A stretch of DNA of 52,765 bases from an uncultured Pelagibacteraceae bacterium. GTDB taxonomy: Bacteria > Pseudomonadota > Alphaproteobacteria > Pelagibacterales > Pelagibacteraceae. The notes under the pieces were generated by a model. The model saw nothing but the letters and a program-made list of their open reading frames with translations. It did no database searches and had not been told where the DNA came from. The stretch is from NCBI GenBank assembly GCA_902624635.1, contig CACNYD010000001.1:1-52765 (forward strand), in the 5' to 3' direction. The position numbers were made by a program, and so were the translations under genes. Shown here piece after piece: positions 2,571 to 12,559 of this stretch (within the stretch, counting starts at the first letter, position 1; each line of letters starts with the position of its first letter).

Positions 2571-4061
2571 ATGAAGTTATTTTTTATACTGGGTAATCAA
2601 TTATTTCCATCAAAATACTTGGACCGCTTCAAAAAAGACCACCTATTTTTTATGGCAGAAGATTATCAATTATGTACTTATGAAAAACATCATAAAAATA
2701 AAATCCTTCTCTTTTTATCATCAATGCGTTCACATGCAGAAACCCTTAAAAAGGATAAGTTTAAATTAGAGTATTTTAAAATTGAGGATAAGGAATTTAA
2801 AGATGACTATTTAAAGAAATTAAAAAAAATAATTAATTCGAAAAAAATAAAAGAGATTTCTAGTTTTGAAGTTGAGGATAAATTTTTTGAAAAAAAAATT
2901 GATCAATTCATTAAAAAAGAAAAAATTAAATGGAACATTGTTCAAACTCCAATGTTTTTAAACTCCAGAAATGAATTTAAACAATATCTGTCTAAATCAA
3001 AAAAACCTTTCATGGCAACTTTTTATAAGGAAGTGAGAAAAAAATCTGGAATATTGATGGGTTCCGATGGAAATCCTATTGGAGGTAAATGGAGTTTTGA
3101 TGAGGATAATAGAAATAAGTTACCCAAAAATATCTCTATTCCAAAATTTCCAAAAATAAATGAAACTAATCATACTAAAAAATTAAAACCTATTATTGAA
3201 AAACTATTTAAAGATCATCCAGGAACAACTAAAAATTTCTGGCTTGCTACAGAATATAATGATGTGGTCAAATTATTAAATTTTTTCATTAAAGAAAAAT
3301 CTAACTTATTTGGTGATTATGAAGATGCAGTTGATCAAAAAGATAATATTTTATTTCACAGTGCTTTAAGTCCTTATATTAACTTAGGTTTAATCACACC
3401 TGAATTTATTATCAAAAAAGTTTTAGATTTCCATAAAAGTAAAAAAATTAGAATAAATTCTCTAGAAGGTTATGTGCGTCAGGTTATTGGATGGAGAGAG
3501 TTTATGAGAGGAATTTATCAAAGTTACTCAAATGAAATGGAAACTGGAAATTTTTTTAAACAAAATCGTAAAATGAAAAAGTCATGGTATGAAGGTACAA
3601 CTGGTTTACCTCCACTAGATTATGCAATTAAAAATGCTTTAAACCATGGATGGTCTCATCACATTGAAAGATTAATGATTTTATCTAACATCATGAATCT
3701 TTGCGAAATAAAACCTACCATTGTTTACAAATGGTTTATGGAAATGTTTGTAGACTCCTCTGATTGGGTAATGGTGCCTAATGTTTATGGTATGGGATTA
3801 TTTAGTGATGGAGGAATATTTGCTACGAAACCATATATTTGCGGATCAAGTTATTTTATGAAAATGATGGATTTTAAAAAAGGTGATTGGTGCAACATAA
3901 TGGATGGGTTGTATTGGAGATTTATTGACCGAAATAGAAACTTTTTTTTGAAAAATCCAAGGCTATCCATGATGGTAAGAATTTTTGATAAAATGAAAAA
4001 AGAGAGAAAAAAAATTATATTAGCAGAAGCTGATAAGTTTATTACACAGAATACATTTTGA
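2571..4061 (+). CDS. Cryptochrome/photolyase (PhrB/FeS-BCP-related branch)
   Basis: The 496-residue protein has the N-terminal DUF523/deoxyribodipyrimidine-photolyase-related domain (FILGNQLF onward) and a C-terminal FAD-binding domain. That domain shows EGYVRQVIGWREFMRGIY (299-316), HHIERLMILSN (363-373), the DWVMVPNVYGM segment (398-408) and GLYWRFIDRN (446-455). This is the layout of prokaryotic (6-4) photolyases that normally bind a 4Fe-4S cluster through four Cys. Here only Cys441 appears to align with a ligand; the PhrB ligand positions equivalent to C350, C438 and C441 are Pro, Lys and a deleted or charged stretch (see findings). It would use light and FADH- to repair UV lesions or act as a photoreceptor. 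It is convergent with the glycosyltransferase at 4067. Confidence 0.85.
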   Translation: MKLFFILGNQLFPSKYLDRFKKDHLFFMAEDYQLCTYEKHHKNKILLFLSSMRSHAETLKKDKFKLEYFKIEDKEFKDDYLKKLKKIINSKKIKEISSFEVEDKFFEKKIDQFIKKEKIKWNIVQTPMFLNSRNEFKQYLSKSKKPFMATFYKEVRKKSGILMGSDGNPIGGKWSFDEDNRNKLPKNISIPKFPKINETNHTKKLKPIIEKLFKDHPGTTKNFWLATEYNDVVKLLNFFIKEKSNLFGDYEDAVDQKDNILFHSALSPYINLGLITPEFIIKKVLDFHKSKKIRINSLEGYVRQVIGWREFMRGIYQSYSNEMETGNFFKQNRKMKKSWYEGTTGLPPLDYAIKNALNHGWSHHIERLMILSNIMNLCEIKPTIVYKWFMEMFVDSSDWVMVPNVYGMGLFSDGGIFATKPYICGSSYFMKMMDFKKGDWCNIMDGLYWRFIDRNRNFFLKNPRLSMMVRIFDKMKKERKKIILAEADKFITQNTF

Positions 4062-10364: not shown

Positions 10365-10578
10365 CAAAATTTTTGAGTGGGCAGGGGTTATTACAGCAAT
10401 ATTATATTCATTATTTGTAGCCATGAATATTGGTATAGAGTTTTTTGGTTTTTGTTTATTACTTATTTCTGCAATCTCAATTGGAATTTGGGCTTACAGG
10501 GGTGGTCATAGAGGAATATTATTTTTACAATTTTTTTATGCCACTGCAGCAATTATTGGGATGTTTAGGTGGTTCTAA
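10357..10578 (+). CDS. Small inner-membrane protein (73 aa)
   Basis: A 73-residue protein with ATG at 10357, overlapping the ArfA-like stop by 8 bp. Three hydrophobic stretches (about 8-24, 28-46 and 52-70) separated by a short YRGGHRG loop suggest two or three membrane helices. I do not recognise a family or function. Overlap with the preceding frame suggests translational coupling in an amidotransferase - ArfA-like - membrane protein unit. Its 3' end overlaps the convergent photolyase-like gene by 4 bp. Confidence 0.6.
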   Translation: MNNKIFEWAGVITAILYSLFVAMNIGIEFFGFCLLLISAISIGIWAYRGGHRGILFLQFFYATAAIIGMFRWF

Positions 10579-11714
10579 TTGAAAGTTGAGATTATTTTGG
10601 GAATATAATTTTTAAAATTAAAAAAACCTTTATTACAATATTGCCAAGAATATTGGTCAAGTTTTCTATACAAAAAGTCTAATCTTAAACTATTTGAATT
10701 TAAATAATCTAGATTTTCACCAACAGTTGGATATAAAGCAATAACATTATCATCTATATTTTTAATTTCACTTATATCCAATACTTCACAATCTATTGAA
10801 TTACTTTTTAATCTTTTCTTTTGGTCATCAATTAAGAGTGATTTAAATTTTAAAACTTTTTCACTTAGTTTTATTGATCTATTTTCATTTTTATTTGAAA
10901 TCATATAAATTTTTTTAAAATTGTTATTTTTAAAATCACTAGTTTCAAATGATAGATTATTTTCAAAAACTAAAAGATTTCTATCGTTTATGTTCTTATT
11001 ATTAAAATTTTTTTTTATAATTGAATAAGTTTTTTCTGAAATTTTAGGAGGAGCGTTTTCGTTTAATTTAATATTGTTAAATTTATTATTAGTGAATTTT
11101 TTAATATTCCACTCGCTCGCTAAATAATGTTTTCCTTGTGTTTGAACTCCAGCTACCCATCTCCATCCAAGAGTATTTGATGCAGCATCACCATCATAAA
11201 GATGTTTCATAAAAAATTCTGCCCCTAGTTGCCAAGGTAGTTCTAAAGTAAAAATCCAAATACTAGCAAACCACATTCTTGTATGGTTATGTAAATAGTT
11301 ATTTTCTTTAAGCTCAGTCACCCATTGATCAAAACATTCAATATTAGTTTTTCCATCAATTGCGTTTATGTAATTTTGATTATTATTAAAATCTTCTCGA
11401 ATTTTATTTAACTCTACGAGATAATCTGTCCAAACGTTTGGTCGTAATTCCAACCAACCTTTCCAATACGTTCGCCATAATACTTCTTGAATAAATTTTT
11501 CATTTTTAGAAAAAGAAAATTTGTTAAGTGATTTTTCAATTACCTCTTTTTCGTTAACTACCCCATGTGAGATGTACGGAGATAAACCAGAAATATTAGT
11601 TCTATTTTCTGGCCCAAAATCAAAATTTCTTAACTTAGAATATTCGAAAAGATTATTTTCTACAAAATTATTTAATCTGTTTAAGGCCGCAACCTTAGAG
11701 GCTTCAAATTTCAT
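10575..11714 (-). CDS. Photolyase-like FAD-binding protein with reversed domain order
   Basis: Residues 1 to about 215 of this 379-residue protein match the FAD-binding domain of photolyases/cryptochromes: NISGLSPYISHGVV (40-53), EVLWRTYWKGWLELRP (77-92), LHNHTRMWFASIW (141-153) and DGDAASNTLGWRWVAG (174-189). There is no N-terminal antenna domain. Instead, residues about 245-340 look like an alpha/beta region (strands around NLLVFEN, KKIYMIS, CEVLDI and VIALYP), which could be the antenna-type domain moved to the C-terminus. The last residues (FFNFKNYIPKII) are aromatic. It may repair DNA, sense light or do neither. The gene is followed on the same strand side by psiE upstream (6 bp gap). 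Confidence 0.78.
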   Translation of the reverse strand: MKFEASKVAALNRLNNFVENNLFEYSKLRNFDFGPENRTNISGLSPYISHGVVNEKEVIEKSLNKFSFSKNEKFIQEVLWRTYWKGWLELRPNVWTDYLVELNKIREDFNNNQNYINAIDGKTNIECFDQWVTELKENNYLHNHTRMWFASIWIFTLELPWQLGAEFFMKHLYDGDAASNTLGWRWVAGVQTQGKHYLASEWNIKKFTNNKFNNIKLNENAPPKISEKTYSIIKKNFNNKNINDRNLLVFENNLSFETSDFKNNNFKKIYMISNKNENRSIKLSEKVLKFKSLLIDDQKKRLKSNSIDCEVLDISEIKNIDDNVIALYPTVGENLDYLNSNSLRLDFLYRKLDQYSWQYCNKGFFNFKNYIPKIISTFN

Positions 11715-11720
11715 TTTTGA

Positions 11721-12101
11721 CTATTTTGATTTTTTTTTCTTTAGACCCAACTTGTCACTGTGTCTTAATCTTAAGATTACAATTGCTCCAGCAATAAGGA
11801 CTATAGCAACAGCCTCATAAACAAGCGCCGCAGGATCCATTTCTTTTCCTTGAAGAATAATAAATCGGGCTAGAGCTGTAATTGCGATCAATAGAGGCAA
11901 CGTAATACTTATAGATTGCTGATCCCAAAAAACTCTTACCATTGCTAACACTTCCAGGTATAGAAACATTAACAGTAGATCTGCTAGAGTTACTGATTGA
12001 TCTACAAACATTTTTTTTATCTCTATTCCAACAGCAATCACCGTGCTAACTAAAATAATGCACATTAGAATCAGTTGTAAATTTTTTGTTATATTTTGCA
12101 T
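11721..12101 (-). CDS. PsiE-family membrane protein
   Basis: This is a 126-residue integral membrane protein with four hydrophobic helices. The central LADLLLMFLYLEVLAMVRVFWD segment and the following ALARFIIL helix match the phosphate-starvation-inducible PsiE family. Function in the family is unresolved, although E. coli psiE responds to phosphate starvation and cAMP-CRP. Its ATG shares one base with the stop of the upstream membrane-protein gene (TAATG), so the two are probably co-translated. No Pho box was recognised upstream. Confidence 0.75.
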   Translation of the reverse strand: MQNITKNLQLILMCIILVSTVIAVGIEIKKMFVDQSVTLADLLLMFLYLEVLAMVRVFWDQQSISITLPLLIAITALARFIILQGKEMDPAALVYEAVAIVLIAGAIVILRLRHSDKLGLKKKKSK

Positions 12102-12559
12102 TACTTATCCTTACTGAATGGTAGCCATTTTTCAAATACTGATTTTGAAGAACCGTCATATGGAATTGAATATGAATACGGATTTGGACTTGTTAATACT
12201 TCAATTCCTTTTGAAAAAACAAATATAAATACGATCACAAAAACAAGAACCATTATTTTGAAAGGGTCAAAATTTTTTGTTTTAAAAACACTAGCTGAAT
12301 TTTCCTCAGCTCTGTGAAAATGTTTAAAAGTCATGTATACAGCAAATATCAAACCAATGTGAGCTAAAAAAAGTCCCGTCCAACCAAAAACAAAAGTTGT
12401 ATATGAAAAAACATATAAACTAAAAACTGTGGTCCAAATAAAGCTTAAGACTAGTAAGATTTGTAACCTAACGGTTTTAGGAAGAGAACGGAGATCATTT
12501 TTACTATCATCAAACAAAATGTTTGCCGTGTCTCTCATCCAATTTTTTAATGATTCCAT
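12101..12559 (-). CDS. Conserved-looking membrane protein, unknown function
   Basis: This is a 152-residue protein with three hydrophobic helices (about 31-53, 58-78 and 98-118) and soluble ends. I do not recognise a family. The N-terminal part is charged and may lie in the cytoplasm; the tail after the third helix (SPNPYSYSIPYDGSS) is polar and probably periplasmic. It overlaps the psiE-family gene by one base, which suggests a shared role in the membrane. A 63-bp AT-rich gap separates it from argG on the same strand. Confidence 0.6.
   Translation of the reverse strand: MESLKNWMRDTANILFDDSKNDLRSLPKTVRLQILLVLSFIWTTVFSLYVFSYTTFVFGWTGLFLAHIGLIFAVYMTFKHFHRAEENSASVFKTKNFDPFKIMVLVFVIVFIFVFSKGIEVLTSPNPYSYSIPYDGSSKSVFEKWLPFSKDK

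Follow-up and report, generated by a model that had tools for sequence, protein, structure and literature searches.

Can a photolyase carry its antenna domain behind its catalytic domain, and how would such an order come about? The question is raised by an open reading frame (ORF) in a stretch of 52,765 nucleotides from an uncultured Pelagibacteraceae bacterium of the SAR11 order, called the window below, whose features are collected in Table 1. Class I cyclobutane pyrimidine dimer (CPD) photolyases of the E. coli PhrB type are longer and have the antenna domain (PF00875) first; the SAR11 protein lacks an N-terminal antenna domain. The first-pass annotation of the window had proposed that it is a permuted or domain-swapped photolyase, with the FAD domain at the start, an alpha/beta-like region at about residues 245-340 and an aromatic tail. 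The inverted arrangement is already in print under the names NewPHL/SPL and Phr7, and the kind is known. Passages of two papers describe an N-terminal FAD domain, a C-terminal Z-domain and CPD repair in single-stranded DNA (PMC9426592, PMC13274461); NewPHL/SPL is called inverted in one (PMC13274461), and a passage of the other (PMC9426592) speaks of "an atypical, short photolyase domain" for the Z-domain. A literature search for permuted photolyases gave nothing relevant.

Table 1. Features of the inverted photolyase gene and its surroundings, in window coordinates.
Feature	Position	Strand	Basis
Probable NewPHL-type inverted photolyase, 379 aa, ATG start	10575..11714	-	ORF call; domain, profile and fold matches
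Catalytic FAD domain, residues 1-215 (end approximate)	11070..11714	-	Pfam and PDB sequence matches; FAD-site and substrate-site residues conserved
Pfam FAD_binding_7 match, residues 74-198	11121-11495	-	E 1e-17
Interdomain linker, residues 216-244 (approximate)	10983..11069	-	Model confidence low over most of it
C-terminal alpha/beta "Z-domain", antenna-domain-like, residues 245-379	10578..10982	-	Model, profiles, fold searches
Trp-dyad stretch: W161 (11232-11234), W184 (11163-11165)	11163..11234	-	Each in 72 of 72 family sequences
PsiE-family membrane protein encoded immediately upstream, probably in one operon with the photolyase	11721..12101	-	Pfam PF06146, E 1.4e-16
Small membrane protein gene next to the PsiE gene, probably in an operon	12101..12559	-	Conserved position
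DPRP-type photolyase, the other family member of the window	2571..4061	+	PF04244, E 1.2e-64

The catalytic domain lies at the very start of the protein, since class I photolyases (1tez, 1owl, 1dnp), whose FAD domains are its best sequence matches in the PDB and share its catalytic-site residues, align over this domain from residue 3 or 4 to residue 189 or 197 (E 6e-16 to 7e-16). The FAD_binding_7 match agrees with this placement. No photolyase domain precedes it, because the start codon stands six bases past the end (11721) of the PsiE-family gene, its upstream neighbor on that strand. The ORF is not due to chance, since it is kept at 377-382 residues in 80 of the 80 SAR11 loci fetched, with a best-segment identity of 77-92%. 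Behind the FAD domain, AlphaFold2 predicts strands at residues 246-250, 269-273, 309-313, 324-327 and 346-348 with helices between them, followed by a tail (351-379) that is conserved (G363 in 70, F365 in 71 and K368 in 60 of 72 family sequences), though modeled at low confidence (pLDDT 41-49 for these last 29 residues in the full-length model). The domain order described by the first-pass annotation, with the FAD domain first, then an alpha/beta domain and a tail, is confirmed.

Residues of the FAD domain were matched through an alignment with E. coli photolyase, and their conservation was read over 72 family sequences. E77, W80, R81, N143, R146, M147, W161, D174, N180 and W184 are invariant, and D176 and W186 are kept in 69 and 70 sequences, respectively. 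Going by the matching E. coli residues, we take E77, W80, N143, M147 and W186 to belong to the CPD substrate site and the matched tryptophans to be Trp-chain positions. Class I CPD photolyases have a Trp triad. At the third triad position, F109 here, none of the 72 sequences has Trp (17 are gapped); in the loosely aligned column of residue 115, Trp stands in 13 of 72. The family is left with a Trp dyad, and the NewPHL of Dinoroseobacter shibae is likewise credited with "a mere Trp dyad" in a passage of PMC8948257. The only cysteines of the SAR11 protein are the scattered C127, C309 and C360, and by this count the set of four Fe-S cysteines is absent.

On architecture, residues and lineage, the 379-residue protein is best filed as a NewPHL (SPL, Phr7) photolyase, and taking the evidence as a whole this is very probably what it is; D. 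shibae A8LJA9 and Methylobacterium mesophilicum M7YZC8 were compared by description. Like NewPHL/SPL of these two species and Phr7 of Prochlorococcus, it has the FAD domain first, a small C-terminal domain and a Trp dyad. It also belongs with them in lacking the Fe-S cysteine set (stated for Phr7 in a passage of PMC9426592) and in occurring in Alphaproteobacteria, and no difference was found in this comparison by description. Phr4/Phr5 and Phr6 of Synechococcus and Cyanobium share the reverse order, as two genes or as one, but Phr4 and Phr6 carry four Fe-S cysteines; going by the relevant passages of PMC9426592, Phr7 is the type to which these reverse-order enzymes are closest. The FeS-BCP or prokaryotic (6-4) photolyases (PhrB, CryB, 8ijy) are longer, with a different domain order and Fe-S cysteines, whereas the SAR11 protein has neither a PF04244 match nor the four cysteines; in fold, its C-terminal domain comes closest to their N-terminal domain.

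That structural match rests on predicted models. The full-length model, made by AlphaFold2 with 81 SAR11 sequences, has a mean pLDDT of 57.6; its FAD half is poor (29-58 per ten residues over residues 1-160), and its C-terminal core is better (67-88 per ten residues over 241-350). The C-terminal domain predicted alone (66-90) came out much like the same region of the full-length model. With this domain model, photolyases took the first three places of a Foldseek search of the PDB (E 0.014-0.020). In VIA, photolyase N-terminal (antenna) domains took the first nine places, with Z scores of 8.9-7.6, rmsd of 2.8-3.3 and 103-117 residues matched: 8ijy (8.9), 8a1h (8.4), 7ykn (8.3), 3zxs (8.3), 9hnk (8.0), 6dd6 (8.0), 4dja (7.8), 9q8f (7.8) and 5lfa (7.6), which amount to about five distinct proteins. 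Universal stress proteins (USPs; 7.6, 7.3) and shikimate dehydrogenases (7.2) came next. Since a Z below 8 may reflect a mere common arrangement and scores within 1 count as tied, the USPs at 7.6 tie with most of the photolyases. With the full-length model, photolyases again led in VIA (first seven places, Z 8.3-7.2), matched through the C-terminal part, while Foldseek gave a best E of 0.097 and no photolyase among the best 50 of 817 matches. The structure scores thus lend modest support to a predicted antenna-like fold, with photolyases ahead of other folds but by a small margin over USPs.

Sequence profiles were compared for the same C-terminal domain. With full-length profiles (46 family against 23 class I sequences), the first alignment laid FAD domain on FAD domain (E 6e-31), and a second, colinear one laid C-terminal residues 246-371 on class I residues 3-152; the P value of the latter depends on the anchor, being insignificant with the window protein (0.32) and 0.0032 with another family member (L116). 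Profiles of the domains alone, C-terminal against class I N-terminal, gave E 8.7e-5 and a score of 33.6 with 72 sequences and E 6e-4 with the 57 from outside the order; the match emerges only with 57-72 diverse C-terminal domains, sequences under 350 residues, identical sequences and one wrongly cut ORF (L136) being left out. In the 57-sequence profile, the tail fell on the last part of the class I antenna domain. In a shuffle control, which covers the 72-sequence profile, the real score without insert states was 29.6, the maxima of 100 column and 100 block shuffles were 23.5 and 23.7, and none of either hundred reached the real value. The same profile scored 26.6 with DPRP N-terminal domains, 19.9 with USPs and 12.6 with ETF (control profiles from 12, 20 and 26 loci, respectively). 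For reference, class I against its known relative DPRP scored 26.7, and class I against USP 34.0. The Pfam antenna domain PF00875 found no match in 27 family members at E up to 10, in a search whose filters drop most weak matches. The profiles argue moderately for kinship of the C-terminal domain with the class I antenna domain. The structure prediction and fold search that had been suggested as a check returned photolyase N-terminal domains as best matches, not an unrelated fold, and because the profiles moderately agree, a reversed photolyase domain order is supported.

Nine alphaproteobacterial loci (L307-L315) hold an apparent split photolyase. Their FAD-only proteins have 244-303 residues, that of L308 being cut to 250 from a longer frame; L318 (G212), fetched with them, encodes a longer protein and was left out of the set. 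In a tree of 63 sequences, the FAD-only proteins join NewPHL (99/99), apart from class I, in a tree with an unsettled bootstrap, a long outgroup branch and long branches that meet. The NewPHL branch itself, including the NewPHL of the L316 genome (x_L316_3, labeled "other" in the tree), has 100/99. A small ORF follows the FAD-only gene in all nine loci examined; its start lies between 53 bases upstream and 14 bases downstream of that gene's end, and in seven loci the two overlap by 4 or 8 bases. All nine small ORFs are matched by a class I antenna HMM (E 1.1e-5 to 0.0078 among ten sequences); with a NewPHL C-terminal HMM, only two are matched below E 0.01. Their nine-sequence profile, from which an alternative-frame ORF (L309_1) and the first 15 residues of L312_0 were left out, matches the class I N-terminal domain at E 1.2e-7 over 128 columns, the NewPHL C-terminal domain at E 1e-5 over 122 columns (72-sequence profile) or E 0.0015 (57-sequence profile), and USPs at E 1.3e-4 over 35 columns. 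Against NewPHL, the real score of 29.9 was reached by none of the shuffles (best of 100 block shuffles, 27.6); against class I, no column shuffle reached the real 40.1, and two of 100 block shuffles did (40.6, 40.1). The pair of FAD-only gene and small ORF looks like the two-gene form that a passage of PMC9426592 describes for cyanobacteria, here in Alphaproteobacteria. Two of the nine FAD-only proteins, those of L308 and L311, have four cysteines arranged as reported for Phr4, and the context of C127, a residue shared by half or more of the 72 family sequences, resembles by eye that of a cysteine in these two.

The C-terminal domain might still be of another Rossmann-like or USP-like (HUP) kind and have been acquired by a FAD-only photolyase, its likeness to the antenna domain coming from convergence or distant HUP kinship. 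In keeping with this, USPs stand close behind the photolyases in VIA (Z 7.6 and below), class I antenna domains themselves match USPs, Pfam finds no antenna domain, and the profile anchored on the window protein is insignificant. Yet the leading places in VIA and Foldseek belong to photolyases, the C-terminal profile scores higher with both class I and DPRP than with USPs, and the small ORFs, intermediates behind sister FAD genes, match both domains colinearly, which makes a foreign domain distinctly unlikely. A true circular permutation, in which a complete photolyase gene was duplicated in tandem and then lost its outer halves, would likewise leave two photolyase-like domains in reversed order, and within the protein it is indistinguishable from a fusion; but the FAD sequences closest to NewPHL in the tree come from two-gene FAD/antenna pairs that already follow that order, and such a permutation seems unlikely. 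Because these relatives are FAD-only genes followed by an antenna-like ORF (9 of 9), fusion of a FAD/antenna gene pair is a plausible origin of the reversed order, though the change may also have run the other way, by splitting. Hence the reversed order in the original "permuted or domain-swapped" reading has stood up, on fold and profiles, and strict circular permutation has not, as fusion fits the tree and the split pairs at least as well. We give about even odds to a joint reading in which the Z-domain would be a degenerate antenna domain, the inverted photolyases would descend from a translationally coupled FAD-then-antenna gene pair still found in Alphaproteobacteria, the order would have been preset by gene order instead of arising by permutation of a finished photolyase, and C127 would be left over from an Fe-S ligand.

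The protein could also be a cryptochrome-like light sensor without repair activity, a role to which the two other photolyases of the same genome would leave room. Against it, E77, W80, N143, M147 and W186 are kept in 70-72 of the 72 sequences, and a passage of PMC9426592 reports CPD repair by two family members, those of D. shibae and M. mesophilicum; a pure sensor is thus very unlikely. For a NewPHL photolyase, the FAD content, repair activity, substrate and C-terminal role of the SAR11 protein may be proposed by analogy. The N-terminal domain would bind FAD; light-excited reduced FAD would donate an electron to a cyclobutane pyrimidine dimer, the dimer would split, and the electron would return. 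Electrons passed along the two-Trp chain W161-W184 could return oxidized FAD to its reduced state. The C-terminal domain would be a reduced antenna-type (HUP-fold) domain, implying no antenna pigment, that probably lies against the flavin pocket and closes it off; in the work of Emmerich et al. (2020) on NewPHL/SPL, the C-terminal domain reportedly seals the FAD site. If the protein acts like the two NewPHL proteins that were tested, it would repair dimers in single-stranded DNA, alongside the class I and DPRP enzymes of the same genome. The reversed order itself may stem from a FAD-domain gene joined to the antenna-domain gene behind it.

The gene often keeps the same company. In 76 of 96 SAR11 loci, PsiE-family and small membrane protein genes precede it on its own strand, and a DPRP gene lies downstream within the DNA of the locus in 83 of 96, on the opposite strand in 79. 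The gap between the NewPHL and DPRP genes has a median of about 1.1 kb in SAR11 loci (L001-L080, L126-L141), against about 6.5 kb of other genes in the window. The earlier remark that the region holds two very different members of the superfamily is upheld, the gene at 2571-4061 being a DPRP-type photolyase by Pfam. This enzyme lacks the four Fe-S cysteines, having P348, two gaps and N442 at those columns; Cys stands there in 10 of 11 alphaproteobacterial relatives, and the nearest of the eleven (L269, 63%) also lacks them. An Fe-S-less enzyme of the DPRP kind is reported in Prochlorococcus in a passage of PMC9426592. The third photolyase of the genome is of class I, on contig C3, and is the sole PF00875 match in that genome. 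Elsewhere, the L316 locus (G525) holds a NewPHL, a DPRP and a further photolyase/cryptochrome gene within about 7 kb.

SAR11 cells are among the commonest in the sunlit ocean. By hand count (E below 1e-90), the gene is present in 136 of 197 genomes of the order, with 130 of 144 in its own family and 6 of 53 in a sister family, where 1 of the 12 genomes at least 90% complete has it and many others are incomplete. Two of the 136 copies (G044:C7, G168:C40) are interrupted by stops or frame breaks. Across the class, by our own count, 28 of 385 genomes, five of them SAR11, have a match over almost the full length of the model at E below 1e-110, and two families have such matches at E up to 1e-60 in 17 of 61 and 11 of 59 genomes. 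In a phylum sample of 299 genomes, all 11 matches over 200 bits outside SAR11 fall in the same class. Full-length relatives (30.6-33.5% identity over 98-99%) occur in named plasmid records of Rhodobacterales, Hyphomicrobiales and Caulobacterales, in Peteryoungia, Asticcacaulis and Ruegeria, annotated as FAD-binding domain-containing protein. On five named plasmids, the neighbors give no functional answer: a UbiB/AarF kinase is near four, DUF3429 near three, and an FAD or NAD(P) oxidoreductase lies directly upstream in two. A phage collection yielded 10 records with FAD-domain matches only (coverage at most 52%), and the viral contigs scanned gave no relative.

No paper naming NewPHL in SAR11 was found in the part of the NewPHL and photolyase/SAR11 literature covered, a weak negative. 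What the present analysis adds is of moderate value: the distribution of the gene across SAR11, and a connection between the Z-domain and the antenna domain. The inverted photolyase is now placed in most genomes (130 of 144) of one SAR11 family, and the putative route from a split pair to a fusion bears on the statement, in a passage of PMC8948257, that NewPHL is an ancestral photolyase.
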